64,000 bases of DNA from NCBI GenBank assembly GCA_949316235.1, contig OX438755.1:20297151-20361150 (forward strand), given 5' to 3'. This DNA comes from Oegoconia quadripuncta. Taxonomy: Eukaryota; Arthropoda; Insecta; Lepidoptera; Autostichidae. The notes beneath the pieces are model-generated. The model did no database searches, had not been told where the DNA came from, and saw only the letters and a program-made list of their open reading frames with translations. A program made the translations under genes and the position numbers. Shown in pieces: positions 37,101 to 63,672 of this stretch (position 1 is the stretch's first letter; every line of letters starts with the position of its first letter).

Positions 37101-40100
37101 GTGTACAGCTATGTGTGCGTCGGCGAGTTCATCGCCTTTATCATCGGATGGAATCTCATACTCGAGTATATTATAGGTACTTATGTAAAGTAATTATATA
37201 AATAAATCCTACCCTACCACCGTGGCTCAATATTAATAACATAGGACTTACAAATCGGAGGTAGCGGGTTAGATTCCCAGAGAGGTTTACTCGGTTTGAT
37301 TGGTGGTAGGGCATTTTTAAATGTCCGCCTGGCAAGTTAGCTAAACCTGCCACCAAGTAACAATGTTGTTTGTTTTTAAACGCTTTATTATACAAAAGAA
37401 ATCAAATTCAAAACTTTACTTAAAACTAAGCACTCACCACATTCTGTGGGAATGCAGTAAATAGAGTCGGGAACGCAAACTCATGCTTCACGATCTAAGG
37501 CCCGTATTTCAGAATCTTGCTCAAGCGTAGATCTGCGCTTGAGCATAGTTAGAAAGAGATGCCGATTTATAAGTTACATAAAGCTGTCTCTTTTTAATTG
37601 TCCTCAAGCGGAGATCTCCGCTTGAGTTACATTCTGTAATTCGGATATCCGGCCGGCATATTACAGCGACCTGGTACTAAGCCGCCATACCATTTCAACC
37701 GCCTCCGTGGCTCAATGTAAACAACATAGGGTTTACGATTTGGAGGACGCGGGTTCGATTACCAGCGGGGTACATGTTTAAATACTCGTTTTGCTTGATG
37801 GTAGGGCATTTTAAATGTCCGCCTGGCTAGCTACCACCATCTTATCTAAATCTACCGCCAAGCAGAAATGTTAATAGCATTGTTGTGTTCCGGTTGTCAG
37901 AGATAGGATAGCCAGTCCCCCAAATGTGTTGGGGTTTCCGGGTCAGTACGCGACCACCTTCGGCCTCATCTTCACTTAACATCGGGTGTGATTGAGGGCA
38001 AGTGCTAACCCGTTGTGCTAAAAAAGACTTCCGAGTGTTCAAGCGCTTCTGTCGTACCTACTATTGGCACTTTTACCTACGGTAGCCTTCTACTACCCTA
38101 CCATCAACGGTCACTGCGATCTGGCGCTGTCCAAGTCTGTTGGGACGAGCAGCTGACATAGAACATATTTTTGTTGCAAAAGAGATCAATACGAGCACTT
38201 TATAATCTGCGTCGACGTGACTCTCTCCGGGACAGGTTTAAGAAAATTAATATTTTAACTGTTCCTTCACTGTTTATTTACGAAAATATTATGTACGTTC
38301 GATAATTAAAATTTGAGATATAAGAATAAATTGGCTACCTCTATGTTCAGACTAAGCAAACGCTTTTATAATCTTATATCATTAATTTAACTGAGAAAAA
38401 ATTTAAAGATCATGTCAAAATAACATCTGAATGACAAACACGGTTGTAGTGGTAGAGCCACGCTGTAAGCTATTAGCTTGCAGCATGAATGGGCCGGCTC
38501 GACCGGGGAAGTACCACCCTCTCGCAGAAGACCGACGTCTGAGTAGTGGCATTTTGCCACTGCGCTTCGTCCGGCCGGAGGCCCACCTTCCAGTCTCTCT
38601 CCAGAATGGTAGCGGTATTTAAAGAGTTAGTACCCCAGGAGGGTACCAGCACTGCTGGAGAATCCCTCATCGCTCAGGCTGCCCTACTTATTCTGGGGTG
38701 GACACCTTCCTCAAAGGCCGGCAACGCATCTGTGACCCTTTTGGTGTTGCGGGTGTCCATTGGCGGCGGTGATTGCTTTCCATCAGGTGACCCGCATGCT
38801 CGTTTGCCGCCCTCTCATATAAAAAAAAAAAAAAAAAAAAAAAAACACGCTTGGTGTACTTCTACCAGCTCTTTTTTTAAAAAAAGGACAACAATGATCC
38901 TGTGGGTTTCTTGCGCCGCTTCTTTTCCCACAGATGATTTCCCTTTCCGAAGCGGTGGTAGTTTGGACATACCGACTGATGGATAAATGCAATAAACTCA
39001 TATATATAACTCATATATCATGTATCTTACGTTGAAATAAATGGTGAAAGTCTGAAGTTGTTTGTTCCAAATTCATATAATATGGTAAAATGGAATTTTA
39101 CACTTCAGAGTATTCTTGATTTCAAATTAAAAATCACTCTATTTCCTGGAGACTTCAAATTAGATCTTCATTGCGGATGTAGTGGCAACATTTCATAGCA
39201 TTTTCGATAAAAATAAATAATTATGAATTTCCGTCGTCAGGTGCCGCGTCTGTGGTGAAAGCCTTGAGTGAGTACCTGGACTCACTGTTGGACAAGGCGA
39301 TCTCATCTCACCTCCAAGCCGTGATGCCCATGGACAGTCCACACCTCGCCAAGTATCCCGACCTCTTCGCGTTCTCCGTCATCATGGCGTTCTCGGGTAT
39401 GATCACTTAAGGATCCATTTAGCTGAGTTGGTAACATTGCATTTTTAACCGACTTCAAAAAGGAGCGGGTTACCAATTCGGTTGTGTTTTTTTTTAACTT
39501 GCAACGATCCTGACATACTACTGCTTCTTCCACTCTCATTAAATGCTTTATACACGCTCGTCGGCTAGTGGTTGACCGCACCTGACCTTTTGTGAGTACG
39601 TCAGTCACTTGATTGACGTACGTCCCTCTTGGTCGACCTTTACCAACATTTATGGGAATATTTCATCCCCAGTGGCGCTCGCATTTGGAGTGAAAGAGTC
39701 GACGAAATTCAACAACTTCTGTACCGGAGTGAACCTTTGTGTCGTCGCGTTTGTCATCATCTCCGGGTCGTTCAAAGGTGATTAATTCTATCAATCAAAT
39801 ACTCTTTGTTGCACAATTATAAAAACTACACAAAATTTACAGCGCACATCATTATATAAAATCATATCAATCATATACATAAATTGGCGAAAAGGCTCAG
39901 CTCTGCAGCGTACGCAGTCAAAAAAATTCGACAAATGTCAGACGTAAATACTGCTAGATTAGTATATTTTAGTTATTTCCACAGCTTGATGTCTTACGGT
40001 ATCTTACTGTGGGGAAATGCCGCGGATATAAATACAATCTTTGTTTTACAAAAACGAGCCGTTCGCGCAATTTATCAATTGAAACCTGCAGTGTCACTTA

Positions 40101-55100: not shown

Positions 55101-58100
55101 ACCGCTCATCCAGCATCCACCTCGTCGTCATCTACGAGAGGACTCGAAGGCTACGTCCACTGCAGCTCCAAGACCTTCAGGCCAGTGACCGTACGGGGAG
55201 ATTTGCCGAGGGGTGCAGGGGAATGAGCTGAATGTACAATAAACCCACTAAATCCAAATGAAATTGGTATTCTTTTCTTCTATACCTACCTGCTGGCGGC
55301 TAAACGGGCGCTAAACGTCCTAAGACAACCCCTAACCGCCGCACGAACATTTACATATGTCTTGCAAAATGTTATAAATTTTGAGATAAGTCAAAGTGAC
55401 TTGGTGTGCGTGCATAGATGAAGTGCCACTGAAATAAATCTAGAATCAAAAACATACGAGATCATAGGGATTATTGAATTCTTACCGCCGATATCAAATA
55501 CTTTTGACAAAATCGGTCATTACAAGGCCCATTGCTACAGACAGAATAAGTGGGTGTGTTATGATAACCTATGTAATCGAACTACATGAAGACGTAAAAA
55601 CATAATTGCACATTGTATATTATATGGACAAAAGTAATCACGCTTTTTGTTTTTTCTTTGTAACTTTTGATAAACGATGAGTAAATGATTATGTCTTATC
55701 CATGTTTCTTTACTTTATCGAAGCACATATACAAACCCATAAATATTTCTCTTATGACTGGCTTTACATTCTTAATACGAGCAAAATAGAACTCTATTCA
55801 TATTGCTATAAAAAAATTGTAGGCGTCAAAAGTTTGTTTTCTTGATTTCCTCATTAATTACTCATTCAATTTGATTTAGATTATATTTTCGTGAGGTACA
55901 TTGAAGGTACATTCGTTTGGTAAATAGTACATACCCATAGCTATTCTATTACATTCATTTTCAACATACACCCGCGATTCTGACCGTCAGGACCGCGGCT
56001 CACTTTATTATTATAATTGCTCCCGTTTCATTGAGGTACATTGACCTTCATTAAAGGTACATACTAGTACATTGTAGGTACTTTTCTGTCGTATATAACA
56101 TAATCATTTCTGAAACAATACACCCGCCATTCTGACCCGTACAAATCACCGACAAGGACGCACGGCGCGCTGCGGCGGCGATTCATCAAAGGAACCGTTT
56201 TCATAAAGGTTTAGGTACCAGAAAATTTCGGTACCGTTATTTCGTTTCGGTATCGTTTTTTATCGATATGGAAATATTCCAATAGCCGAATTTTACGGTA
56301 TGACGTCATACCGTTAACCTTTATTACCTTTACTTTTCGGTTATTCAGTCCCTGCATTGGACACGCTAGTTGACCGAACACGAGGAGGTAAATGGGGTTG
56401 AAGCTCATGTATGATATTGCTTGCAATGGTCTTGTTCAGCCTGTAGGTGTCGAAGAATTGCTTGTCAGAGAGGTAGGAGAACGCATCAAAAAGAGGACTC
56501 GTTCTAAGGTGTCTCCGGAGTTCCTGGCGTTGAAGATCATCATGGGCTTCTGCCAATTCTAACTCACCCAGAAAGAGTCCTAGACGTGCCATTTCCTACA
56601 ACTTAAGAAAATATACACTTTTCACTCAGATTTTCACTTTTCATGCAAATAATTATATTGGATCACGTTATTATACCTTCTGTGGAAGTAATAAACACTA
56701 AATTTCGAGTTTTTCGCCTTGTTATTAACAAACTTCGTATGAAATTCGATCGGCCAAAATTTCGCGGTTCGAGATGTCAATGTCAAAATTTTTAGGTTAG
56801 AAGATAAACTGCAAACCGAGTTCAACCTCAAAAAATTTGCAGTTTATGTCACGTGACCGTAGTTGAACGTCAAAACTTTGCGGTTGAACCTTAAACGCTT
56901 CTTACGTGGTACGCCTGCAGAGCCCGACGGATTTTTTGAGATATAAGCCTGGTACCCACGGACATAGAAAGTAGTACAGAGCACAACGTCAAACAATGCG
57001 GTCGGTTCAGCAGTAATAGTGAAAAGTTAGTGTATGTGATGTGAACAACTGTGAACGAAGAACACGAAATTATACGAAGCATTTTCAACAATCTCCAGAG
57101 TTTTTGTGTTGTGATTTCCCTACGCTCACTCCCCGTGTGATCCTCCCTCGGCACGGCTAAAACCTTACCAGAGCGACCCCAGTGTGGCGCTCTATGTAAT
57201 ATCGTCTACAAATTGGTCCTTCGAGCCGGATAGGTAATAGTCGTGCGTGAGGTCGAGTGAGCGTAGATGAGAAGATAATGTCGCGTCGAGTTGAAGATTG
57301 TGAGAAAAGGACAATGGGGCTGCGAGAAGAGTGTGCCCGCGACGGTGGCGCCGCCGGTGCGCGTGAAGATCGGCTCACCGTCGACGGATTTAGTGCCCCG
57401 TTTCCTCCGTGTGTTGGAAGCTTCAAGAGCGATTCGTGTTCGACGTCGGACTGTGTACTAGAAGATCGACGGGTCTTCCAGTGTGGAGCGTGTAGTACGC
57501 AGTCTGAACCCGCCTTCGTCGAAGTGTCGACGATGACAAGAAGGCAACGGTTGGAGTTAGTGGCGCGTCAGAAAGAAGCCGAGTATGAAGCCATGGTGAA
57601 ATGGGCTCGTGTACAAGAGGCAGCGATAGAGAGAAAGCTAGCCGAGAAAAAGGCTGCCATCATAGCCAAGTTTATGGCCTCCGAGAATGAAGAGGCAGAA
57701 GTGTGTTCGCAGTTGGAAGACAGGGCCTTGTGTCGTCGTGTGGAGGAGCGCCTTACAACCGCCCCCCCAAGCCCCTCTTCCCCTCGTTCGTCTGCTGCGA
57801 CAAACACCAAAATGTTACCTACACAGACGTCGTGTAGTGTTATGGTTACCGCCTCGTCGCCGTTACAGTTTGCGGTGAAACCACCTCGTGAATCGGACAT
57901 TCGTGACAATGACTTTGTTTGTGTGGTGTGCAACGACAATCACGATTTGCCCTCATGTGTTGAGTTCGAAGCGTTTGATGTGGACTCTCGTTGGGACTTT
58001 GTTGAAGAAAATAGACTGTGCTACAAGTGTTTCCAGCAAGGACACTCGTCGGAATTTTGTTGTGCGCGTAATTGTGAAACTTGTAGCGCCCCACATCACG

Positions 58101-61100
58101 TGTTACTACACTACATCGATTTAGAACCAACAGTGGACTCGAACATTTTTGAATATAATGAGTGTAGTGACCTTGCTCCTTTAGTAAAGGATGCCCCGGA
58201 AGTGAAAGTGACTTTGCAAGAGCGGTGCGATGTAGACGATGATTCATCCGGGATTCTCCCATGTCTACCAAATGTTAACGGGACTTTGTTATGTCACAGT
58301 AATAACAGTGAACTAAAATTGATAGTGAATAGTGCGCGTTCACCCCGAACATTGGACTTCAGTGACACGTTATTGGACTGCAGTCTCTTGAATCATAGTG
58401 AGAGGATTGATTCGAAACCCGCACTGTTCCCGTGTCAGGATAATCCACAGCTCGAAGTTGACCGGGAAATACGAGAGGGTAAGTCCAGCCTACCTATCGC
58501 TTCTCTCACTGAATCAGATTGTTGTGCCCAGGGTCCTATTGTAGATAGTTCTTTTGTATGTGTCCGTGTTCCCAATTGTATTGGCCCTTCTGTTGTGTGT
58601 GAGCCGACTATTGTCAATGTTGTGTCCGAGCTGGCCGATCAGAATGTTGGCCTGTGTAACCGCCGTATAGAGAGCGGTCAGGAGGTTAGCCAGCTTAGGA
58701 GACGGAACACATCTGTGCCGTGTGTTAATCGAGCTCACAATTTTGTTAACTCCTTGTTGTCAGGCTCGGAATTCAACCCGCTCACTCGAGAGTGGGAGAC
58801 AACCTTTGCTCCCACGTCGCGACTTGAGCCCTGCCCGTTAATGCCGTCTGTAATTAAAATTAGTTTTGATCGCGATAAGATGTTAGATTTATGGTTTTCT
58901 AATTCGTCGACAGACGTCTCCTTGTGTACTTTGCTGCCTTATTTTGTGTCGGGTGAGTTCGACGTTCTCACCGGCAGCCTAGATTGTGTATTTTATAATA
59001 GCGCTAAGCGCGTGAGCACCCATGTGTGGGGGCGGTTATAAAACTGTTTCTTGCTGCGTATGTCTGAGCCCGCTGTACCTGCGTACCTACAGCTAGGACG
59101 TAAGGACATGCGGCTCGTGTAAATAATTGTATAATTTGAATTAGTTGTTGAGATAATTCTCCTTGTTGTTTTGCCACTATTATTTTTGTTATGCAAAGTC
59201 TGTGACCTTTGCTAATGTGGCCCTGTTGTATTGTTTCGTTCCCTTGTAGGAACAGTAACTAGAACGGTAAGTGAGTACCCCTGTGTTGCAATTCGGTACC
59301 ACTACGTTTTGAGCCCAGACTGCTTTGTTTACCTACATAGGTTAATGTGTAGGCCATGTAAAATATGTCAATTTGAGACTTTCGACGTCTCCCTGTGTTT
59401 GCCGCCCGTAGGAGTGTTTTGGGCAAAGTTTGCCCAGCGGCCTTGTTTCCCTGTGTTTGCCGCCCGTAGGAGTGTTTTGGGCAAAGTTCGCCCAGCGGCC
59501 TTGTTTCCTTGTGTCATGTCGCCCGTAGGAGTGTGTTGGGTATGGCTAGTGCCTACCCAAGCGACTTTGTATCAAACTGTGTTTGCCGCCCGTAGAAGTG
59601 TTTTGGGAAAAGTTTTCCCAAGCGGCCTTGTTTCCGTGTGTCATGTTGCCCGTAGGTGTGAGTTGGGCAAAGTTGATGTTCTTTGCCCAAGCAACCCGTG
59701 TCCATATGTTACGTCGCCCGTAGGAGTGTTTTGGTTGAGGCTAGGCCTATCCAAGCGACCTTGTAACAAATTGTATTGCTGACTAGAGTAACAATGTTTT
59801 GTAGATCGTCTGTGTATACAGATTTGAGTATTGTCTGCCCAAGCGGCCCCGTGGTGAATGTTCTACCGTTCGTGGAAGTTTGCCTGCCCAACGGCGTCGT
59901 GTTTATTTTGTCGTGTTGTCGGACACCAGTGGAAGTGTTTTGGATGTGTGCAGTGCTGCCCGTCCAATGGCCCTGTAGATTATGTTTTGTCGCCATGTAT
60001 GCTTTCCCGGTTTAAGTAAAGTTGTTTTTGCCCATCAAGCGGCCTCGTGATTATTTTTTGTTAATGTTTTGCCTGTAGCATACATTACTTTGTGGAGACC
60101 CACATATCAGGGGCGGTTTGTCAACCCCCTCAGTTATTTGGTCTCATCAGACTTGTGAGTTAGCCGTAACTCTTGTAAATATATGAATGTAGTAGGAATA
60201 AGTAGATTTGTAAGCTCATGTTGTATATATAGTGTGTAGATATGTAGTTAATTATTGTACATTTGTCAGAGGTGTCGATGGAAACCTCCTCGTTTGTGTT
60301 GCTGCCTGGAGAAGTGTGTTGGGCAAAGCTGATGAGCTCTGCCCAAGCAGCCTAGTTTCGCCGAGTCGAACGGCCTCGTTTGTCGTATGTTTGTACTAGG
60401 GGGTGGCGCAGAATGCGCATCCCAATTTTAGTGTTTGTCGAAGTGTTTATTTTGAACAAAGTGAGAGTAGCGATTGGCGCTGGCAATCCTCTGCCGGTGA
60501 CTCAGTTGACAGAGCTGCAGGAATATACTGCCTCTGGGAAAGAAGTATTGTGGTTTTGCATCTGTCCTCTACCTCTGATCCACAGCCTGTAGTCACTGCC
60601 AGCACCATCGCTTATTAAGCTCGCGGCTATACATTGCCCAGCGATGCTACACGTGCGCCCTGTCTGCGCGCCTTGAACACGCGCCCTGAATACTTACGCG
60701 CTCTGTATGCGCGCCTGTCTGCGCGCCTTGTCTGTGCGCCCTGATAGCGCGTCTGTCTGCGCGCGCTGAATACGCGCCCTGTGCGCCCTGAATGCGCCTC
60801 CCGTATGCGCGCTTTGTCTGCGCGCCCCGTGTGCCCTGATTGCGCGCCCTACATCGCCTGAGCGCCTGTCTGCGCGCCCCGTATGTGCCCTACCTGTGCA
60901 CTTCTTCCTGTGTGCTCAGCTACGGCCGCCTAACCGTGGTGGATGTACTTCGTGCCACCGCGCCCGTCTACGTGCCGCCATTGCACCCTAAATGGGATGG
61001 CCTTGTGCGCTACAGTGCGCAACGAGACTGTCTCAATATTAACACGACAGTCTCAGAACATGACGTGCTCTGAAATGGAATACCCCTGTACTAATTATGC

Positions 61101-63272
61101 CTGCCGGGTTCTGCCGTCATCTGACGTCAATCATAGAAGGTTGACCCTGCGAGCGCTTTATAATATGCGCTCCCCGTACTTCGTGATCATCGCGTCGACG
61201 CTGCGACCGGACGAGTATGCTACCTAGCATTGTCTGGCCTTATCGGTGTGCTTCCCTTCGCGTCAGCGCCGAACGAAGTTAGAGTGATGGACTAAGTTGA
61301 GATGTGAAGTGCGTTTCGCTTTATGGCAATAATAAGCGTGTAGTGAAAGTGAAGAAAAAATGTGGAAGCGAACTTTTACGGACTGTATAGCCTATTGTAT
61401 AGCGTAAATTGTAGATAGTTTTATTTCGTGTGACGCTGCGACGTCATGATACGCTGACCATTGTGCTCCTTCATGATTTAGTAGTAATCGGATGTAGTGA
61501 AATCCACATCCTCATACTAGGGGGTGGAATGTTGAGGAGCAAAATGATCAACCATGTTTTTGATGGGAAAATTATTTGTTCTTATCTGAGTATTGTAAAT
61601 TTGATAAATATTTGTGTGGGTAGTAGTGTAAAGCCAGTCTTACGATGTATAGCATCAACATCGAGCCGACCGCTAATTCCTTTTATGGCCACCAGAGGCG
61701 CCCTTTTTAATAAAAATGACAAATTGGTGGGTACCTGCATTTAATTCGCCGCGGGTTCTGATTGGTTAAAATTAATTAATTCCGGCATTGTCATTGGTTG
61801 ACCGATCAGAGCCCGACGGATTTTTTGAGATATAAGCCTGGTACCCACGGACATAGAAAGTAGTACAGAGCACAACGTCAAACAATGCGGTCGGTTCAGC
61901 AGTAATAGTGAAAAGTTAGTGTATGTGATGTGAACAACTGTGAACGAAGAACACGAAATTATACGAAGCATTTTCAACAATCTCCAGAGTTTTTGTGTTG
62001 TGATTTCCCTACGCTCACTCCCCGTGTGATCCTCCCTCGGCACGGCTAAAACCTTACCAGAGCGACCCCAGTGTGGCGCTCTATGTAATATCGTCTACAG
62101 GCTGATAAAGAGCGAAATTCAACTACAAAATGCAGACGATTAATGATAACCTACTCTTATAACTGTTTAGAATATTTATATATCGATAATTATTTCTTTA
62201 ATTGGTAGTATCGTGCACCCTACCTGTTTTTCTACCTACAAATGTCCCATAGCAGTGGGTAGTCTGGAAGTTTTTAGTGATAAGACCGCCTAATTGTGTT
62301 CTATTGTTATCAACAAAAATTATTGTAAATTATTTTGCGCAATAAAGAGTTTTTGTATTGTATTGTATGACAATGCATTTCGAGGAAACCTTACAATTTG
62401 CTAGGGTAGTCTCTGACCTTCTGCGTGTATGTTGGGCACGCCATTGAGTACTTAGTTACATAAAGCGGAGGTGCGTCATATGTTGTGTTTGTTGGAAGAT
62501 AGTATCTCTTTTATAGAATGGCGATGGGGAATGTGCCACGAGTGTCTTTATTGGTAACTTATATCTAGTGAAGGACATAGAGATAAAATAAATTTAAACA
62601 TCGTTGTGCTTGTGTGTACTTAGGTGTATTTATCTATATAGAAGTACTGACTATATCTATTTGTTTCAGGATGAGAAGGCGCCGTTCCCGTTCGTGTACG
62701 ATCAGCTGGGCTGGCCGTGGGCCAAGTACGCCGTCAGCGTCGGCGCCATATGTGCACTCTGCTCCAGGTATACTTTTGTCCGCCTGGCTAGCTACCACCA
62801 TCTTATCTAAATCTGCCGCCAAATAGCATTGTTGTGTTCCGGTTGTCAGAGATAAGATTGCCAGTTCCCCAAATATTTACGGTTCCGGGTTAGAACGCTT
62901 CCACCTTCGGCCTCATCTTCACTTAACATCAGATGTGATTGAGGTCAAGTGCTAACCCGTTGTGCATAAAAAAAATACCCGGACTCCTGAGGGAGAGCCT
63001 GGATTATGTGGGATTTTCACCCACTAAAACCCCTGTCTGTCTTTATTTTGATTGAGCTGTTTACTGTGTGAGGTTGGAGACTTGTTCAATATCGTCCAAT
63101 TCAATTATAAATTCATCATTATTTGGTGTCAGTTTGCTTGGCGCGGTGTTCCCACTCCCACGCATCATCTACGCGATGTCCAACGATGGCCTCCTGTTCC
63201 GCTGCCTCGGCCGCGTCAGCGAACGCTTCCAGACCCCACTAGTGGGGACCATGCTCGCTGGACTGTTCACTG
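11499..63272 (+). CDS. Cationic amino-acid transporter (CAT/SLC7 type), nine exons seen, 3' end outside window
   Basis: Proteins of this family carry arginine, lysine and ornithine across the plasma membrane. Coding exons: 11499-11592, 32725-32973, 37048-37176, 39241-39396, 39673-39777, 42367-42504, 42899-43047, 62670-62767, 63133-63272. Every join is GT/AG and the phases agree, giving about 418 residues; relatives have roughly 600-700, so the last third is beyond 64000. Family motifs in order: [13 protein letters not shown] (TM1), [10 protein letters not shown] (after TM2), [11 protein letters not shown] (TM3), [24 protein letters not shown] and RRPQKSIP (the CAT signature after TM6), [17 protein letters not shown] (TM8 and the following loop). 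No frameshift or stop was found, so the gene looks functional. Introns 1 and 7 are 21.1 and 19.6 kb and full of transposons. Exon 1 is the least certain because it is joined by phase and donor quality only. Confidence 0.85.
11944..12275 (+). repeat. tRNA-derived SINE family S1, full length
   Basis: The head (CCGCCTCCGTGGCTCAATAT, then the B box GGTTCGATCCC) looks like a tRNA pol III promoter. A shared body follows (TGGTTGGTGGTAGGGCATTT, CTGCCGCCAAGCAGCAATGT) and the copy ends in poly-A at 12268. It is the reference copy for the other S1 entries. Confidence 0.85.
12280..13640. other. Intron 1 sequence, no gene recognised
   Basis: 12730-13030 has higher G+C and an open minus frame, but no recognised motif and may be part of a repeat. 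The rest is AT-rich. Confidence 0.35.
13655..13930 (-). repeat. LINE family A 3' tail fragment
   Basis: The minus strand matches the LINE family A tail (motif AGAAGAACAAGCAAGAAACTC region), followed by a decayed stretch like the end of its reading frame. Confidence 0.55.
14150..14452 (+). repeat. LINE family B 3' end, 5'-truncated
   Basis: It matches the 3' end of the LINE at 18288-20445 (CACCTGGATGAGTGGAAGTC, then TCCGGCAGCGGTATTCCTGA) and ends in poly-A at 14442. It encodes only the last residues of the reverse-transcriptase protein. Confidence 0.75.
14453..15229. other. Intron 1 sequence, nothing recognised
   Basis: AT-rich sequence without coding motifs or clear repeats. Confidence 0.35.
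15230..15690. repeat. Dispersed repeat block
   Basis: 15600-15685 (holding CCAAACACTATTGTTTGGGA) recurs inverted at 17875-17945, and a short piece recurs at 45185-45225. The first half resembles common lepidopteran inserts that begin near GGCTGGGCCGATTTGG. The family is unknown to me. Confidence 0.4.
15890..16032 (-). repeat. tRNA-derived SINE family S2
   Basis: The minus strand has a tRNA-like B box (GGGTTCGAATCCCGCGAGGGG) followed by a tail with ATTCCCGAGTCATGAATG. Copies also lie at 36355-36500 (minus) and 45438-45640 (plus). Confidence 0.6.
16286..16853. mobile_element. 568-bp MITE with perfect 20-bp terminal inverted repeats
   Basis: The left end TAGCCCAGGGAAAATACGGT (16286-16305) is repeated exactly as its reverse complement at 16834-16853. 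CAA flanks both sides and may be a 3-bp target duplication. There is no coding capacity. The superfamily is not certain. Confidence 0.7.
16854..17330 (-). pseudogene. Mariner transposase fragment
   Basis: The minus strand encodes the mariner N-terminal helix-turn-helix region: [19 protein letters not shown], then [20 protein letters not shown] and [13 protein letters not shown], all strongly mariner-like. The frame then jumps to a short tail and stops at 16851. The catalytic DDD domain is missing, so this is an internally deleted, inactive copy. It directly abuts the MITE. Confidence 0.75.
18108..20741. mobile_element. hAT-type non-autonomous element with perfect 8-bp target duplication
   Basis: The ends are TAGGGCTTGGTATTCGAATA (left) and the inverse of TAGGGCTTGTAATATTCG (right). 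GTGTAGAC flanks both sides (18100-18107 and 20742-20749). An 8-bp duplication is typical of hAT elements. Both subterminal regions are rich in ATTCGAATA palindromes. No hAT transposase is present; the interior is filled by the LINE at 18288-20445. Confidence 0.8.
18288..20445 (-). pseudogene. LINE family B (jockey/CR1-like) reverse-transcriptase copy, 5'-truncated and frameshifted
   Basis: The element copies itself through RNA. Minus-strand pieces in order: 20395-20045 (linker), 20048-19395 (reverse transcriptase: [37 protein letters not shown]) and 19325-18594 ([26 protein letters not shown] catalytic box, then the thumb region). The pieces lie in different frames, so the copy is dead. The 3' end is poly-A (poly-T in plus reading) near 18290. 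The endonuclease domain is missing. It sits inside the hAT-type element. Confidence 0.85.
21001..21092 (+). mobile_element. Truncated copy of the GGCCCGTATTAATAAA MITE
   Basis: It begins CTAAGGCCCGTATTAATAAA like the full copy at 22793-23110 and is cut off by the SINE that follows. Confidence 0.6.
21094..21330 (+). repeat. SINE family S1, head missing
   Basis: It matches the body of the 11944-12275 copy from GTACTCGGTTTGGTTGGTGG to the poly-A at 21322. The tRNA-like head is missing. Confidence 0.75.
21705..21860 (-). repeat. LINE family A 3' tail
   Basis: Reverse complement of the tail at 22600-22765 (CTACAAAATAAAGCA end, GAACAAGCAAGAAACT inside). Confidence 0.65.
22316..22505 (+). repeat. 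Dispersed repeat, copy 2 of 3
   Basis: Begins CCGGATGAGTTTTTTTACCG. It faces an inverted copy at 23150-23265, so the two may be ends of one older element about 0.95 kb long that later received a LINE tail and a MITE. Confidence 0.5.
22600..22768 (+). repeat. LINE family A 3' tail
   Basis: Matches the 3' untranslated end of the LINE at 39870-40685 (TTCTTGCTTGTTCTTCTCAG, ending AATAAAGCATTTTTTGATTT). 5'-truncated. Confidence 0.65.
22793..23110. mobile_element. 318-bp MITE with 16-bp TIRs and TAA target duplication
   Basis: The TIR GGCCCGTATTAATAAA is perfect at both ends, and TAA flanks both sides (22790-22792 and 23111-23113). A 3-bp TAA duplication fits PIF/Harbinger-type elements. There is no coding capacity. 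Confidence 0.75.
23150..23345 (-). repeat. Dispersed repeat copy 3 of 3, followed by an S1 SINE tail fragment
   Basis: 23160-23260 is the inverted copy of 22316-22410. 23288-23335 matches the end of SINE S1 (ACTTGACCTCAATCACACCTG) on the minus strand. Confidence 0.5.
23350..25330. other. Intron 1 sequence, no gene recognised
   Basis: AT-rich. 24470-24585 resembles 6250-6370 inverted (shared GTCTCGACTGTGTAATATTTG). Nothing else was recognised. Confidence 0.35.
25935..26300 (+). repeat. 160-bp subterminal tandem array, left arm (about 2 copies)
   Basis: The unit contains GCTCTTTTCATTGCC and ACTATGGCGGCCAGTCTCAA. Successive units start 160 bp apart (for example TCAGACCCC at 26099 and 26259). 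The same unit is present about six times, inverted, at 29575-30530. Confidence 0.8.
26642..27106 (+). pseudogene. Inverted partial copy of the zinc-finger transposase 5' end
   Basis: This is a near-identical, oppositely oriented copy of exon 1 ([14 protein letters not shown]…), the intron and the first part of exon 2 of the transposase at 27222-29207. One in-frame TAA interrupts the proline-rich repeat, and the copy stops after the PNYIRAPN motif where a LINE tail begins. It cannot encode an active protein. Confidence 0.8.
27107..27230 (-). repeat. LINE family C 3' end fragment
   Basis: Poly-T followed by TATTAAAAACTGG and CTCACCTGATGGAAAGTGAC, matching the tail of the LINE fragment at 53885-54490. 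It marks the junction between the inverted gene copy and the transposase gene. Confidence 0.65.
27222..29207 (-). CDS. Two-exon zinc-finger DDE transposase (IS5/ISL2EU-like)
   Basis: A transposase for its surrounding element. Exon 1 is 29207-29067 and exon 2 is 28958-27222, joined in phase 0 with GT and AG ends, giving 625 residues. The N-terminus has a zinc-binding pair split by the intron (CVMC at residues 8-11, later CHRC). A short proline-rich repeat follows (VQPPEE/VQPPDE units). The catalytic core fits DDE_Tnp_4-like enzymes: [20 protein letters not shown] and [14 protein letters not shown] carry the presumed D, D and E. No stop or frameshift was seen, so it may be active. The 3' end of the gene lies next to a LINE tail rather than the element's own 3' end, so the original polyadenylation region may be lost. 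Assignment to ISL2EU is from memory of motifs. Confidence 0.8.
29575..30530 (-). repeat. 160-bp subterminal tandem array, right arm (about 6 copies)
   Basis: Units start at intervals of exactly 160 bp (GGGGGTCTGATT near 29741, 29901, 30061, 30221 and 30381). The copies are almost identical, which suggests recent expansion. The inverted left arm has only about two. Confidence 0.85.
30928..31445 (+). repeat. 130-bp minisatellite, four copies
   Basis: Units begin GTTCCAAGGTCCC(A/G)ATTCTCGCGAAGTTG, recur every 130 bp (about 30930, 31060, 31190 and 31320) and contain TATATATATATTGG. The last unit is diverged. The open frame through it is an accident of the repeat. A single similar unit lies at 25418-25480. 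Confidence 0.8.
31715..31862 (+). repeat. LINE family A 3' fragment
   Basis: Matches 40370-40500 (ATCATCCCTGGACA and GCATGCCAGGCTATTT). Confidence 0.6.
31863..32090. repeat. Dispersed lepidopteran-type repeat (CACGCCTGTTTCCCGTAGGG)
   Basis: The block with TGTCACGCCTGTTTCCCGTA and CTACGATCCTGACACACCTT also appears, diverged, at 39495-39655 in intron 4. It is probably part of a LINE; no reading frame is kept. Confidence 0.5.
32100..32162 (+). repeat. LINE family A 3' tail fragment
   Basis: Contains GAGTTTCTTGCTTGTTCTTC and AAATTGCCTTTTGAACAA as in the other family A tails. Confidence 0.55.
32383..32692. repeat. Inverted pair of SINE S1 copies (palindrome)
   Basis: 32383-32505 reads as the SINE head and body on plus; 32510-32692 reads as a copy on minus. 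Both tRNA-like heads lie at the outside. The inner parts of the bodies are lost. RNA from this region could fold into a long hairpin. It ends 32 bases before CAT exon 2. Confidence 0.8.
32725..32973 (+). CDS. CAT transporter exon 2 (TM1-TM2)
   Basis: Acceptor TTTCATTTTCAG, donor TGCTG|GTAAGG, phases 1 and 1. It encodes [13 protein letters not shown], the most conserved membrane segment of the CAT family, and most of TM2. Confidence 0.9.
33035..33368 (+). repeat. SINE family S1 body with a different tRNA-like head
   Basis: The head GTTTGGTGTAGTGGATACAA differs from the usual S1 head, but the B box GGTTCGATCCCC and the whole body are shared. It ends in poly-A at 33360. Confidence 0.75.
33395..34015. 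repeat. LINE family B 3' end (minus) split by a SINE S3 (plus)
   Basis: 33395-33592 and 33908-34010 together read as one family B 3' end on the minus strand (CCGTTCCACAG joins GGTGGTCGTACGTGG, as at 18480). Between them lies a plus-strand SINE (33596-33907), related to 38425-38845 and ending in poly-A. The SINE's own 3' part equals the LINE 3' end. Confidence 0.7.
34147..36310 (-). mobile_element. LINE family C (jockey/CR1-like), 5'-truncated, with long RT frame
   Basis: The 3' end is poly-A (poly-T in plus reading at 34147-34176) on the minus strand. The body holds the reverse-transcriptase frame at 34229-35926. Upstream remnants to about 36310 are frameshifted. No endonuclease domain was found. 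Confidence 0.8.
34229..35926 (-). CDS. LINE reverse transcriptase, partial, with internal deletion
   Basis: An open frame of 565 residues encodes the RT core: [65 protein letters not shown] and the catalytic GYADDST. The thumb and C-terminal region follow ([34 protein letters not shown]). Compared with the copy at 19.4-20.0 kb it lacks the stretch around SCGPDGIP between LDVNKA and KELSPVL, an in-frame deletion of roughly 20 residues in the finger region. That deletion and the missing endonuclease make it unlikely to be active. Confidence 0.85.
   Translation of the reverse strand: MSKSVETNFCRSSLPPLQKPDGSLAFSAVEKANVFASLFASNSRLDTGSNQPPSLPRCDSSMSEITIHCKEVQRALCSLDVNKAKELSPVLTRLFRLSLSQGTVPSIWKLANVQPIPKKGSRADPVNYRPIAITSILCKVMEKVLNSKLLRYLESNDLLSDLQFGFRQRRSTGDLLVYLTHCWGEAIEKCGEAFAVSLDISKAFDRVWHASLLNKLSAYGIPVRFCNWISDFLSGRSIRVVIDGCSSDLMAINAGVPQGSVLSATLFLLHINDLLRPGIVGYADDSTVTERYISSQGTDGTISSLREAMLERTNLTLSLVSKWGDDNLVGFNASKTQACLFSTKRSPPNLTPTFRNITVPVSDHLELLGMKLSSTLNFGTSIESTAQTAAKKLGILNKVKRYFTPGQLLTLYKAQVRSGMEYCCHLWDGSAKYQLAALDSVERRAKRLIGNKELVESHLHSLEHRRKVACLSIFYRIYFGECAEVLHELIPPSPFLHRNSRRTAGYHPHLVDVPFIRTKRFRSSFLIRTAKEWNALPPSVFPIAYNPQLFKVRLNRHLLGKLVPS
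36355..36500 (-). repeat. SINE family S2 tail
   Basis: The minus strand matches 45500-45630 (ACTCGGGAATAAATG and CAATCATCTAGT motifs). Confidence 0.5.
36870..36970 (-). repeat. Dispersed GC-rich repeat
   Basis: CTGGAGCGGGCAGTCCCATA and GGCGGGTTGAACACGTAAAT are the reverse complement of parts of 41050-41160. Confidence 0.5.
37048..37176 (+). CDS. CAT transporter exon 3 (end of TM2, TM3)
   Basis: Acceptor CTTTGACAG, donor TATAG|GTACTT, phases 1 and 1. It encodes [16 protein letters not shown] and [11 protein letters not shown], both family signatures. Confidence 0.9.
37208..37372 (+). repeat. SINE family S1, 3'-truncated and diverged
   Basis: It has the head ACCACCGTGGCTCAATATTA and a diverged B box, and the body breaks off at 37372. 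It starts about 30 bases after the exon 3 donor. Confidence 0.65.
37496..37660. mobile_element. Palindrome-rich MITE-like element
   Basis: It starts TAAGGCCCGTATTTCAGAAT and contains two near-perfect palindromes (CAAGCGTAGATCTGCGCTTG and CAAGCGGAGATCTCCGCTTG). Its left end resembles the 22793 MITE, while the right end is less clear. Confidence 0.5.
37692..38030 (+). repeat. SINE family S1, full length
   Basis: Head ACCGCCTCCGTGGCTCAATG, B box GGTTCGATTACC (mutated), whole body, short A-rich end at 38020. Confidence 0.8.
38090..38400 (+). pseudogene. Decayed LINE family A reading-frame fragment
   Basis: Frames 38170-38305 give [12 protein letters not shown] and [14 protein letters not shown] peptides matching the C-terminal part of the copy at 39884-40438, with frameshifts. 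Confidence 0.5.
38425..38848 (+). repeat. SINE family S3 with LINE family B 3' end
   Basis: The 5' part (GGTAGAGCCACGCTGTAAGC, GACCGACGTCTGAGTAGTGG) is unrelated to LINE B. The 3' 120 bases (GGCCGGCAACGCATCTGTGA to CCGCCCTCTCATAT) equal the LINE B tail and end in a long poly-A at 38819-38844. Confidence 0.7.
39241..39396 (+). CDS. CAT transporter exon 4
   Basis: Acceptor CGTCGTCAG, donor TCTCGG|GTATGA, phases 1 and 1. It encodes the extracellular loop after TM3 ([13 protein letters not shown]) and the start of TM4 (FAFSVIMAF). Confidence 0.88.
39485..39655. repeat. Dispersed repeat filling intron 4
   Basis: It resembles 31900-32080 (CGATCCTGACA and GCTCGTCGG motifs). It ends close to the acceptor of exon 5. 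Confidence 0.45.
39673..39777 (+). CDS. CAT transporter exon 5
   Basis: Acceptor TTTCATCCCCAG, donor TCAAAG|GTGATT, phases 1 and 1. It encodes [14 protein letters not shown] and TM5 ([12 protein letters not shown]). Confidence 0.9.
39870..40685 (+). mobile_element. LINE family A 3' half (jockey-like), 5'-truncated
   Basis: The frame at 39884-40438 encodes the thumb/C-terminal part of a reverse-transcriptase polyprotein ([38 protein letters not shown]). A 3' tail follows, with TTCTTGCTTGTTCTTCTCAG and AATAAAGCATTTTTGAC. The catalytic domain is absent. It is the source sequence for the many family A tails in this window. Confidence 0.75.
40805..40900 (+). repeat. Dispersed repeat (AAGTCCCCAACCCGCA)
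   Basis: It shares GTGAAGTCCCCAACCCGCA with 43350-43385. Family unknown. Confidence 0.4.
40943..41170 (+). repeat. SINE tRNA-like head joined to GC-rich repeat
   Basis: 40943-41020 is a tRNA-like head (B box GGTTCGATCCCCAGCGGGG). 41055-41170 is the GC-rich segment that recurs inverted at 36870-36970. Confidence 0.55.
41188..41420 (+). repeat. 43-bp GC-rich minisatellite, five copies
   Basis: The unit begins CCGCCCGCAGCTGTGCGGCG and recurs at 41188, 41231, 41274, 41317 and 41360, then breaks off in a partial sixth. The units are almost identical. A short (CAGA)n run follows at 41500-41518. Confidence 0.9.
41806..42238. mobile_element. 433-bp deletion derivative of the 25.6-30.6 kb transposon
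   Basis: The left part of about 345 bases matches 25581-25920 and the right 65 bases match 30555-30617; the whole interior (arrays and gene) is missing. Both ends carry TTAGGTCCTTACC or its counterpart and TA flanks. It is a classic MITE formed by internal deletion. Confidence 0.8.
42367..42504 (+). CDS. CAT transporter exon 6 (loop and TM6)
   Basis: Acceptor CCCATGTTAG, donor CATCG|GTGAGT, phases 1 and 1. It encodes [18 protein letters not shown] and [10 protein letters not shown]; the last begins the CAT signature. Confidence 0.9.
42560..42840. repeat. Intron 6 repeats
   Basis: 42580-42665 resembles 4970-5080 (TCCTCTTCACGGCTGGACGG). 42765-42820 read on minus is a LINE family A tail remnant. 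The intron is 394 bases long. Confidence 0.45.
42899..43047 (+). CDS. CAT transporter exon 7 (signature and TM7)
   Basis: Acceptor TTATCCCCAG, donor ATGCAG|GTAAAT, phase 1 in and 0 out. It encodes [19 protein letters not shown], the most diagnostic CAT motif, then a hydrophobic span and LMLPYYMQ. Confidence 0.92.
43290..43421 (+). repeat. Repeat into which the BEL element inserted
   Basis: It contains AAGTCCCCAACCCGCATTGG as at 40820. The BEL target duplication GGCTG is at 43417-43421 here and 62100-62104 on the far side. Confidence 0.5.
43422..43698 (+). repeat. BEL 5' LTR, left piece
   Basis: Begins TGTTGAGGAGCAAAATGATC. It appears identical to 61530-61806 and is interrupted by the Harbinger element three bases later. 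Confidence 0.9.
44394..47750 (+). pseudogene. Harbinger Myb/SANT-like DNA-binding protein gene, splice donors damaged
   Basis: The second protein of Harbinger elements helps bring the transposase to DNA and the nucleus. Exons read as 44394-44397, 44469-44692, 45671-45856, 46411-46484, 46604-46840, 47002-47258, 47392-47486 and 47558 onward. The N-terminal trihelix-like domain holds [35 protein letters not shown] and, across the exon 2/3 join, [16 protein letters not shown] proline-rich linker and an Ala/Glu/Arg coiled coil ([20 protein letters not shown], then AAAERR repeats) follow. The in-phase donors after exons 4, 6 and 7 do not read GT (GA, TG and CT), although the flanking exons stay in frame. 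The gene is therefore probably not properly spliced. Confidence 0.65.
45438..45640 (+). repeat. tRNA-derived SINE family S2 within the Myb gene intron
   Basis: A-box-like TTGGTGTAGTGGATAATCGC, B box GGTTCGATTCCCG, then the S2 tail with ATTCCCGAGTCATTGACG. It lies between exons 2 and 3. Confidence 0.7.
47650..48390 (+). repeat. Left arm of an imperfect inverted repeat between the Harbinger genes
   Basis: It pairs with 49965-50590. The best-matched part is 48230-48300 (GGTCGGGTTTTCTTATGGTG) against 50090-50150. Both arms contain the 3' splice-like TTTTGATTTTCAG and a run of AT-rich sequence. Confidence 0.65.
48391..49964. other. Spacer between the two Harbinger genes
   Basis: No gene. It holds a perfect palindrome with 21-bp arms (48771-48791 and 48794-48814). 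Two related segments with GGGGACGATGGGAA-like and AATCCCAGTGTCCCC-like inverted motifs lie near 48960-49010 and 49735-49790. Confidence 0.5.
49965..50590 (-). repeat. Right arm of the inverted repeat between the Harbinger genes
   Basis: Reverse complement of parts of 47650-48390, at the 3' end of the transposase gene. Confidence 0.65.
50701..56592 (-). CDS. PIF/Harbinger transposase, exon 1 split by an insertion
   Basis: The DDE nuclease of the element. Exons on minus: 56592-56355 continuing at 51919-51912 beyond the nested element, then 51832-51636, 51561-51429, 51352-51214 and 51128-50701. All joins are GT/AG with matching phases, for 380 residues in total, the usual length for DDE_Tnp_4 Harbinger transposases. 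Exon 1 has [16 protein letters not shown] and [12 protein letters not shown]; exon 2 has [16 protein letters not shown]. The catalytic residues lie in [14 protein letters not shown] (D), [14 protein letters not shown] (D) and [17 protein letters not shown] (E). Apart from the 4.4-kb insertion there is no stop or frameshift, so the gene was probably functional until then. Confidence 0.85.
52686..53437 (-). repeat. Left arm of a 750-bp inverted repeat
   Basis: It is the reverse complement of 55344-56140 with small indels (matching landmarks: GTGAGCCGCGGTCCTGACGG, and GACTGGCTTTACATTCTTAA inverted). It contains the 3' part of the USP-like frame. Confidence 0.8.
53145..53747 (-). CDS. Possible ubiquitin-specific-protease-like domain, C-terminal part
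   Basis: An open frame of 200 residues with no certain relative. Its second half resembles the C-terminal half of USP/UCH deubiquitinases: a Cys pair (C96, C101), [20 protein letters not shown], then [19 protein letters not shown] (His162, Trp173, Asp177-178, the position of the catalytic His box) and [11 protein letters not shown] at the end, as in the LFY…R/K end of USPs. The N-terminal Cys box is not in this frame, so upstream exons or lost sequence would be needed for activity. A diverged second copy of its 3' part, with a frameshift, lies in the opposite arm (55370-55640). Possibly the gene of the transposon that forms the arms; the function is not established. Confidence 0.4.
   Translation of the reverse strand: MYRIRAQIAEQYFKTNFSKGITEIHCECSVTKIFDEFLIDAIYSADIKENCTNESCVFNNVTRKIVFLLIDMNKKEVSELNDFAASMLVSDNVVLCRRNNCNGIRTFTYVLQNVINFEISQSDLVCIDEVPLEINLESKTYTIIGIIEFLPPISNTFDKIGHCKAHCYRQNKWVCYDDLCNRTTRSRKNIIVHCILYGQK
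53885..54495 (-). pseudogene. LINE family C 3' end, 5'-truncated
   Basis: Poly-A at the 3' end (poly-T in plus reading near 53888-53910). The minus frame from about 54415 to 53944 encodes the C-terminal RT region ([46 protein letters not shown]), closely related to 34229-35926. No RT core. Confidence 0.8.
54496..55343. other. Centre of the inverted-arm element, origin unknown
   Basis: 55030-55230 is richer in G+C and has an open plus frame (63 residues, Ser/Pro-rich) without known motifs. It may be a piece of another retroelement. Confidence 0.3.
55344..56140 (+). repeat. Right arm of the 750-bp inverted repeat
   Basis: Inverted copy of 52686-53437. It carries a frameshifted version of the USP-like 3' coding part, including an intact match to [14 protein letters not shown] sequence with one change ([17 protein letters not shown]). 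Confidence 0.8.
56918..57210 (+). repeat. BEL 5' LTR, right piece
   Basis: It matches 61807-62099 apparently without differences and ends CGTCTACA. Confidence 0.9.
57213..57229 (+). other. Candidate primer-binding site of the BEL element
   Basis: TTGGTCCTTCGAGCCGG follows the 5' LTR by two bases. A TGG start is usual for a site pairing with a tRNA 3' CCA end. I did not identify the tRNA. Confidence 0.5.
57278..59041 (+). CDS. BEL/Pao-like Gag protein
   Basis: An intact 587-residue frame starting at the first ATG ([13 protein letters not shown]). Gag forms the particle that packages element RNA. Around residues 90-150 is a charged coiled coil ([40 protein letters not shown]). At about 215-285 lies a cysteine-rich block: [13 protein letters not shown], then the CCHC knuckle [14 protein letters not shown] (C-x2-C-x4-H-x4-C), then [13 protein letters not shown]. 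This order is typical of BEL/Pao Gag just before protease, but no protease or polymerase follows. The remaining 300 residues are acidic and Ser/Val-rich with no family I recognise. The usual DUF1759-type N-terminal region is not evident. Confidence 0.75.
   Translation: MSRRVEDCEKRTMGLREECARDGGAAGAREDRLTVDGFSAPFPPCVGSFKSDSCSTSDCVLEDRRVFQCGACSTQSEPAFVEVSTMTRRQRLELVARQKEAEYEAMVKWARVQEAAIERKLAEKKAAIIAKFMASENEEAEVCSQLEDRALCRRVEERLTTAPPSPSSPRSSAATNTKMLPTQTSCSVMVTASSPLQFAVKPPRESDIRDNDFVCVVCNDNHDLPSCVEFEAFDVDSRWDFVEENRLCYKCFQQGHSSEFCCARNCETCSAPHHVLLHYIDLEPTVDSNIFEYNECSDLAPLVKDAPEVKVTLQERCDVDDDSSGILPCLPNVNGTLLCHSNNSELKLIVNSARSPRTLDFSDTLLDCSLLNHSERIDSKPALFPCQDNPQLEVDREIREGKSSLPIASLTESDCCAQGPIVDSSFVCVRVPNCIGPSVVCEPTIVNVVSELADQNVGLCNRRIESGQEVSQLRRRNTSVPCVNRAHNFVNSLLSGSEFNPLTREWETTFAPTSRLEPCPLMPSVIKISFDRDKMLDLWFSNSSTDVSLCTLLPYFVSGEFDVLTGSLDCVFYNSAKRVSTHVWGRL
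59401..59759 (+). ncRNA. Tandem series of six covarying RNA hairpins
   Basis: Units: 59401-59441, 59459-59499, 59518-59565, 59585-59626, 59645-59695 and 59713-59759. Each has a 5-bp outer stem, a 5'-side bulge close to CCGTAGGAGTGTT, and an inner stem TTGGG…CCCAA. Outer stems read GCCGC/GCGGC (units 1, 2 and 4), GTCGC/GCGAC (3 and 6) and GTTGC/GCAAC (5). Inner stems read TGGGCA/TGCCCA, TTGGGTA/TACCCAA, TTGGGAA/TTCCCAA and TTGGGCAAAG/CTTTGCCCAA. Base changes on one side are matched on the other, so pairing is kept while sequence drifts. Unit 6 has a weaker inner stem. The role is unknown; packaging, dimerisation, export or protein binding are possible. Confidence 0.7.
60301..60351 (+). ncRNA. 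Seventh hairpin unit, separate from the series
   Basis: The outer stem is GCTGC/GCAGC, a fourth compatible combination. The bulge reads CTGGAGAAGTGTG. The inner stem is TTGGGCA/TGCCCAA, extended by AGCT/AGCT. Degenerate units may also exist near 59863-59895 and 59925-59980. Confidence 0.6.
61516..61529 (+). other. Polypurine tract of the BEL element
   Basis: TACTAGGGGGTGGAA directly precedes the TG of the 3' LTR, the place where plus-strand DNA synthesis is primed. Confidence 0.6.
61530..62099 (+). repeat. BEL 3' LTR, intact (570 bp)
   Basis: TGTTGAGGAG… to …CGTCTACA. It shows the uninterrupted sequence ACCGATCAGAGCCCG where the 5' LTR carries the Harbinger insertion. Confidence 0.92.
62670..62767 (+). 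CDS. CAT transporter exon 8
   Basis: Acceptor TTTGTTTCAG, donor TCCAG|GTATAC, phase 0 in and 2 out. It encodes [20 protein letters not shown], a loop and the start of TM8. A SINE starts about nine bases past the donor. Confidence 0.9.
62777..62975 (+). repeat. SINE family S1, 5'-truncated, in intron 8
   Basis: It begins at GTCCGCCTGGCTAGCTACCA in the SINE body and ends in poly-A near 62968. It fills more than half of the 365-base intron. Confidence 0.8.
63133..63272 (+). CDS. CAT transporter exon 9 (last in window)
   Basis: Acceptor TTTGGTGTCAG, donor TCACTG|GTAAGT, phase 2 in and 1 out. It encodes [17 protein letters not shown] and [13 protein letters not shown], typical of CAT and related transporters. 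The gene continues outside the window. Confidence 0.9.
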
Positions 63273-63359: not shown

Positions 63360-63672
63360 AACCACCTCCGTGGTTCAATGTAAACAACATTGGGTTTACG
63401 TTTCGGAGGTCGCGGGTTCGATCCCCAGCGGGGTACATGTTTAAGTACTCGGTTTGGTTGGTGGTAGGGCTTTTTAAATGTCCGCCTAGCTAGTTACAAC
63501 CATCTTATCATAATAGCATTGTAGTGTTCCGGTTGTCAGAGATAAGATAGCCAGTCCCCCAAATGTGTTGGGGTTTCCGGGTCAGTACGCTTCCACCTTC
63601 GACCTCATCTTCACTTAACATCAGGTGTGATTGAAGTCAAGTTCCAACCCGTTGTGCATTAAAAAAAATAAT
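63360..63672 (+). repeat. SINE family S1, nearly full length
   Basis: Head CACCTCCGTGGTTCAATGTA, B box GGTTCGATCCCC, body with a small internal deletion, poly-A from 63661. Confidence 0.85.

Follow-up and report, generated by a model that had tools for sequence, protein, structure and literature searches.

We examined a 64,000-nucleotide stretch of the Oegoconia quadripuncta genome (contig OX438755.1, positions 20,297,151 to 20,361,150 of the forward strand; hereafter the window). Within it, an apparently BEL/Pao-derived, non-autonomous long terminal repeat (LTR) retrotransposon carries an array of bulged hairpins that shows real, selection-like covariation in its stems. Six of the hairpins stand in tandem at 59401-59759 and a seventh lies at 60301-60351, all on the same (plus) strand. 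The units are as follows, with the arms of the outer stem in DNA letters:

59401..59441, plus strand: hairpin U1, outer stem GCCGC/GCGGC
59459..59499, plus strand: hairpin U2, outer stem GCCGC/GCGGC, A-C mismatch in the inner stem
59518..59565, plus strand: hairpin U3, outer stem GTCGC/GCGAC
59585..59626, plus strand: hairpin U4, outer stem GCCGC/GCGGC
59645..59695, plus strand: hairpin U5, outer stem GTTGC/GCAAC
59713..59759, plus strand: hairpin U6, outer stem GTCGC/GCGAC, U-U mismatch in the inner stem
60301..60351, plus strand: hairpin U7, outer stem GCTGC/GCAGC

Architecture of the hairpin units

Each unit consists of an outer stem of 5 bp, a 13-nt bulge confined to the 5' side, an inner stem and a variable tip. 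Units are 41-51 nt long, with the variation almost wholly in the tip, and the linkers from U1 to U6 are near-constant in length (17, 18, 19, 18 and 17 nt). The outer stem takes four different sequences and is paired in 35 of 35 cells, a cell being one pair position in one of the seven units. The inner stem opens with UUGGG/CCCAA (TTGGG/CCCAA in DNA) in most units, and its sixth pair is C-G in four units, U-A in two and A-U in one. The bulge has a conserved sequence, CCGUAGGAGUGUU, with the consensus CCGTAGGAGTGTT. The bulge and the base preceding it, CCCGTAGGAGT (59405-59415, and in other units), correspond to part of what we take to be a common bacterial 16S rRNA probe, most likely by coincidence. 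An unguided RNAalifold run on the seven units returned exactly the outer stem, the 5' bulge and the inner stem, and the minimum-energy folds of single units with a few flanking bases contain both stems in U1-U4 and U7, whereas that of U5 is without the outer stem and that of U6 without the inner one.

The initial annotation of this DNA had described a tandem array of seven units of one architecture and had proposed RNAalifold as a check. Its coordinates, outer stem, bulge and inner stem were all found as described, as were the four always-complementary outer stems, the three forms of the sixth inner pair and, in RNAalifold, the structure itself. The description needs amendment in two respects. 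Only six units are in tandem, U7 standing ~540 nt downstream of them beyond decayed units, and the inner TTGGG/CCCAA stem is not uniform, as U1 and U2 are missing one inner A and U2 and U6 carry the mismatches listed above.

Covariation among the units

The evidence for covariation comes from variation among the seven units of one element. Over the whole structure, 80 of 82 cells are paired (97.6%), compared with 90.4 ± 1.6% in shuffles and 30-49% after sliding the structure by 1-3 columns. Shuffles give a covariation score of 0.155 ± 0.035, none of 500 attaining the observed 0.306, and the slid versions give at most 0.099. Other measures do not stand out. Three pairs show a double change, a number attained by 169 of 500 shuffles and by a single slid version, and the five further pair types are matched in 499 of 500 shuffles. 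Covariation accounts for only -1 of the -14.87 kcal/mol in RNAalifold. We also compared the units with a tree-based null, in which the ten outer-stem columns evolved independently from a paired ancestor to about the observed divergence along a tree drawn from the unpaired columns (short sequences, with some branches weakly supported at 0.49-0.96). At this calibrated rate, all 35 cells stayed paired in 148 of 20,000 runs and 15 runs had at least five doubly changed cells, with both conditions together in none; the real units show both. Three other rates gave both conditions in 0, 1 and 1 of 20,000 runs. Finally, in an exact permutation of the distinct outer arms, the true pairing alone reached the score, as one of 24 arrangements for U1, U3, U5 and U7, one of 120 when the diverged unit D2 (see below) was added and one of 720 with D4 as well. 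This last test is limited to distinct arms, D1 repeating those of U7, and leaves out the imperfectly paired D5 and D6.

At outer pairs 3 and 4 both arms read CpG, and decay of CpG could contribute to the changes at these two positions, making them weaker evidence. As the whole explanation, CpG decay is ruled out by outer pair 2 and inner pair 6, which read directly as non-CpG. By a minimum count made by hand, the seven units require no fewer than five double changes: three in the outer stem, since two of its sites appear in every one of their four combinations, and two at the sixth inner pair. Gene conversion, which the initial annotation had named as an objection, does not fit well as a source of the matched changes, because conversion moves existing arms whereas at least five double changes are needed. 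Template switching during reverse transcription could still produce matched arms neutrally. The suggestion that matched stem changes point to selection on RNA structure is supported by selection-like covariation, in that the covariation score and the paired cells exceed shuffles and slid structures and the outer stems exceed the tree-based null.

Conservation of the bulge

Pairwise differences among units average 0.17 for the bulge, compared with 0.18-0.21 for the stems, 0.32 for the tip and 0.38 and 0.52 for the flanks, in agreement with the earlier remark that the bulge is kept in sequence. No complement of the bulge within the element was better than those found for 40 shuffled bulges. On this ground a long-range cis partner was rejected, and the bulge more probably has its partner in trans.

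Diverged and decayed units

Five further places in the element resemble the units to varying degrees:

58933..58978, plus strand: candidate diverged unit D1, inside the end of the Gag-like open reading frame (ORF); outer GCTGC/GCAGC, inner GGTGAG/CTCACC
59173..59221, plus strand: candidate diverged unit D2; outer GCCAC/GTGGC, inner TTA-GCAAAG/CTTTGC-TAA
59865..59895, plus strand: decayed unit D4, inner hairpin lost; outer ACCGT/ACGGC with 4/5 pairs, from hand alignment
59922..59971, plus strand: decayed unit D5, outer stem partly lost; inner TTGGATG/CGTCCAA
59989..60043, plus strand: decayed unit D6; outer GTCGC/GCGGC with one U-G pair

When U1-U6 alone served as training units, the model still recovered U7, with a score of 55.3 bits (E 2.4e-12 over 64 kb), although its outer stem occurs in none of them. 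With a model of all seven units, the next-ranked places were 59918-59978, 58929-58985 and 59169-59228 (13.5, 12.9 and 12.6 bits), which correspond to D5, D1 and D2. Their E values are 0.13, 0.19 and 0.22 over the window and 0.009-0.015 over the 4,322-base internal region, and all three lie on the array strand inside the same element; D6 scored 9.8 bits (E 1.4 in 64 kb). A sequence-only model found remnants at 59828-59851, 59926-59946 (D5) and 60016-60048 (D6), with E values of 0.006, 0.29 and 0.085. It did not recover D1 and D2; support for these two therefore comes from structure and flanks, and they may be chance matches. An architecture scan of 57211-61532 gave 16 places with a bulge on the 5' side (including U1-U7 and D1) and 10 with one on the 3' side; in the first 57,210 bases of the window the corresponding numbers were 57 and 65, or 4.3 and 4.9 per 4,322 bases.

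When the five diverged units are aligned by hand with the seven, both sides have changed in at least one unit at 8 of the 12 pair positions, in an alignment made with the stems known. The twelve-unit alignment also contains four mismatches (A-C twice, A-G once and U-U once), three wobble pairs and four gaps. The inner arms of D1, D4 and D6 were not entered, so that nine of the 12 units represent the inner stem, and the remnant at 59828-59851 was not included. A larger hairpin with outer arms GAGACC/GGTCTC lies at 60095-60145, within the decayed part of the array.

A search of the window against Rfam returned no match at gathering score, and a known RNA family was rejected on that result. At E ≤ 5, three weak matches were obtained in 58700-60700, all below gathering score and none over U1-U7. 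No tRNA or tmRNA was found in the window.

The host element and its coding content

The element comprises the following features besides the hairpins:

56918..57210, plus strand: 5' LTR, truncated at its 5' end (293 of ~570 nt), identical to 61807-62099
57213..57232, plus strand: primer binding site TTGGTCCTTCGAGCCGGATA, read directly from the sequence after the 5' LTR
57278..59041, plus strand: Gag-like ORF of 587 aa with a triple Cys-His box, from a motif match; the sole long ORF of the element
60395..60406, plus strand: internal copy of the polypurine-tract sequence ACTAGGGGGTGG, read from the sequence
61516..61527, plus strand: polypurine tract ACTAGGGGGTGG ahead of the 3' LTR, read from the sequence
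61530..62099, plus strand: 3' LTR, TGTTGAGG...CTACA, with a putative start (~61530) placed from the sequence behind the polypurine tract and an end given by the 293-nt repeat

LTRs, a primer binding site and a polypurine tract, all features of BEL/Pao membership, are thus present, the 5' LTR in truncated form. The primer binding site presumably matches the 3' end of tRNA-Tyr. The two LTR parts (56918-57210 and 61807-62099) are identical at 293/293 positions, which suggests a young insertion. The hairpin array would then belong to an element that moved recently and that probably carried both its decayed and its intact units when it did. The polypurine-tract 12-mer occurs twice, ~1.1 kb apart, where 0.11 occurrences are expected in the window at up to one mismatch. 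Its internal copy may act as an additional primer for the plus strand or be left over from a composite 3' region. A degenerate second repeat field, rich in GCGCGCC and with periods of ~22, 38 and 48, lies at 60646-60895 between the hairpins and the 3' LTR.

The Gag-like ORF contains the Cys-His motifs CX2CX3HX4C, CX2CX4HX4C and CX2CX3HX4H, with an HH doublet. The hallmark of Pao-like Gag proteins, as defined in PMC554778, is CX2CX3-4HX4C, CX2CX2-4HX4-5C and CX2-4CX3HX4H, and the zinc fingers found here fall within this triple Cys-His definition, HH doublet included. The same paper gives the doublet as a further characteristic of the group, though absent from Sinbad and Pao. A Pfam scan of the 587-aa ORF matched no family, and no protease, reverse transcriptase, RNase H or integrase was found in a scan of this ORF and the longest other frame. 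There are 22 stop-to-stop frames of at least 60 aa overlapping 59042-61532, the longest of 188 aa; beyond the Gag-like ORF, the Pfam scan covered the longest frame only, from its first start codon, and matched no family. The triple Cys-His box and the LTRs, with no pol domain in the scanned frames, lead us to label the element BEL/Pao-derived and non-autonomous, apparently not a full member of BEL/Pao, much as the initial annotation had described a gag-only, BEL-like element.

No homologue of the Gag-like ORF was found at E ≤ 0.001 among 7,996 scored candidates, in collections that may not include its own genome, and residues 200-285 had none at E ≤ 1 among nine candidates. Viral contigs gave no exact pattern match and three stretches that fit a peptide pattern, none of which encodes a relative (these collections, too, may omit the genome studied here). 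A degenerate 19-mer was matched exactly at two places in bacterial metagenome-assembled genomes, which does not exceed chance, as we estimate that 257 billion bases would give ~7 such matches. A single-sequence AlphaFold model of the ORF had a mean pLDDT of 40.8 and was not used. Antisense frames here reach 100 aa at most.

A protein-coding repeat was also considered and is ruled out. The unit periods of 58, 59, 67, 60 and 68 shift the reading frame, so a repeated peptide cannot be the cause of the array, and the 183-aa frame that is open across it has no Pfam match; the array is non-coding, as had been claimed for it.

Other features of the window

Tandem 160-bp repeats at 25927-26298 and 29551-30534, in opposite orientation by eye, flank a minus-strand ORF (27222-28892) that matches DDE_Tnp_4 and, below cut-off, HTH_Tnp_4. 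The arrangement resembles a DNA transposon whose inverted ends are repeated. An identical 55-nt hairpin sequence occurs at 33772-33826 and 38702-38756, ~4.9 kb apart, on either side of a reverse transcriptase ORF (34229-35926). A two-copy repeat (62822-62975 and 63512-63667) is 91-94% alike in gap-free pieces.

Possible roles of the array

We tentatively propose, as a possibility that falls short of probable, that the array acts in cis as a structured RNA, within the 3' untranslated sequence of an element that derives from BEL/Pao and lacks a polymerase, with hairpins that bind Gag and aid uptake into particles. The bulge between the two stems would be a putative protein-binding site, repeated for avidity; that it is conserved, has no cis complement better than those of shuffled bulges and is held between stems fits a protein site read in trans. 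The likeliest partner would be a Gag nucleocapsid, supplied either by the triple Cys-His protein that the element itself encodes or by a full BEL/Pao helper. With Gag gathered on it by the array, the element RNA could then enter particles and borrow a polymerase. We infer the packaging role: the element has kept a nucleic-acid-binding domain of Gag and lacks a polymerase, and particle uptake would be the most economical role for the array. That the array is a new cis-acting RNA module, in which bulged, covarying hairpins recruit own or helper Gag for packaging and copying in trans, seems to us unlikely.

A number of observations weigh against the packaging proposal. The evidence is drawn from one element. 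Many retroviral packaging signals lie at the 5' end, and the array is near the 3' end. The folding energy of the array on the sense strand is ordinary (z -1.46; all z scores are from 100 dinucleotide shuffles per stretch). In the sense strand with a 10-nt flank, the outer-stem probability is 0.76-1.0 in D1, D2, U1-U4 and U6, with 0.38 in U5 and 0.32 in U7. With a 20-nt flank it is 0.17 in U1, 0.03 in U2, 0.41 in U3 and U4, 0.15 in U5 and 0.03 in U7, and the outer stems of U6, D1 and D2 hold at 0.98-0.99 (outer pairing is 0.99-1.0 in D1 and 0.99 in D2). A sense fold of 59380-59780 gives 0-0.32 for the outer stems of U1-U6 and 0.92-0.96 for the inner stems of U3, U4 and U5, and one of 58900-60420 gives 0.63 for the outer stem of U6 and at most 0.26 for the others, D2 not counted. 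In these predicted folds, the outer stems compete with alternative pairings as the sequence lengthens; tandem repeats can pair with each other, so fold prediction cannot decide the state of the outer stems. A model built without U7 scored the places of D5, D1 and D2 at 12.4, 10.3 and 10.8 bits (E 0.36-1.2), near a background in which 31876-31911, outside the element, reached 10.0 bits. Finally, not every unit is needed, since some of those between U6 and U7 have decayed.

The main non-functional rival is a neutral palindromic repeat, which we regard as somewhat unlikely: a functionless, family-specific tandem repeat whose arms are kept matched by template switching of reverse transcriptase and whose units spread by slippage and unequal exchange. 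One-step copying of arms predicts few wobble intermediates, and wobble pairs fill one of the 82 cells in the seven units (three in all with the diverged units). The decay of several units and the ordinary sense folding energy also favor this explanation, and an analogous status may hold for the 3' regions of plant Retand elements. However, arm copying leaves unexplained why the unpaired 13-nt bulge is more conserved than the tips and flanks and why the linkers are of near-constant length, and the distant U7 retains both stems, the outer one differing from those of U1-U6. The main functional rival is a structured array with another job, in the nuclear export of unspliced RNA or in the control of stability or translation, mediated by a host RNA-binding protein with the bulge as its recognition site. 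The position of the array between the ORF and the 3' LTR, its repeated hairpins with a conserved one-sided loop and the lack of a cis partner for the bulge all suit such a role, and the evidence from covariation, RNAalifold and the tree-based null applies to it equally. We nevertheless consider such a role unlikely, and the window contains no Rfam family at gathering score.

It is also conceivable, though improbable, that the functional strand is not the sense RNA, and that the fold acts in an antisense transcript or minus-strand complementary DNA, or that the units are palindromic DNA sites. Compared with shuffles, the antisense strand folds with far greater stability over the array (z -4.75 vs. 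-1.46 for sense) and over 59130-59260 (-5.22 vs. -2.38); the corresponding values are -1.95 vs. -0.13 for 58900-59040, -1.09 vs. 0.21 for 59771-60296 and -3.2 vs. -0.71 for 60280-60370. With a 20-nt flank, the antisense outer stems of U3, U4 and U7 reach 0.99, compared with 0.41, 0.41 and 0.03 on the sense strand. However, this contrast may be compositional, as the G+T-rich sense strand may let shuffles fold well through G-U pairs, and the antisense fold of the whole array gives the outer stems of U4 and U5 only 0.01 and 0.31. The strand signal in the twelve units (three G-U vs. two A-C on the sense strand) favors neither strand. A DNA site read by a dimer, for its part, would preserve its sequence and not change both arms jointly.

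Comparison with other elements and significance

Constitutive transport elements of simple retroviruses are repeated bulged RNA structures near the 3' end that function in nuclear export; the array resembles them in having repeated bulged structures near the 3' end, and itself has no Rfam match at gathering score. In Retand, a plant Ty3/gypsy element, tandem repeats likewise stand between the coding region (pol in Retand) and the 3' LTR, some members are without coding domains, and the repeats are family-specific with a function given as unknown (PMC11963269). Retand belongs to another superfamily and another kingdom than the element described here. An antisense ORF with a TRP28 domain lies beside the Retand repeats in 97% of clusters, according to the same paper, and the terms "hairpin" and "secondary structure" have no occurrence in the main text of PMC11963269. 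Pao/BEL elements share with the present one the LTRs, the triple Cys-His box of Gag and the HH doublet in the third finger, as the Sinbad paper (PMC554778) describes them, and differ from it in that protease, reverse transcriptase, RNase H and integrase were not found here in the scanned frames. The term "tandem repeat" does not occur in the main text of PMC554778. Plants thus provide known cases of tandem repeats in the 3' part of LTR elements. For BEL/Pao elements, none of the open-licence matches listed had a title or opening of the abstract that dealt with a covarying hairpin array.

Recruitment of helper particles by non-autonomous LTR elements is poorly known. For the tandem repeats found in 3' regions of LTR elements, PMC11963269 describes both origin and function as unknown. 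The covarying array provides a defined RNA motif with which the recruitment of particles and the nature of such repeats could both be tested, and the bulge sequence with its flanking stems is a searchable signature.
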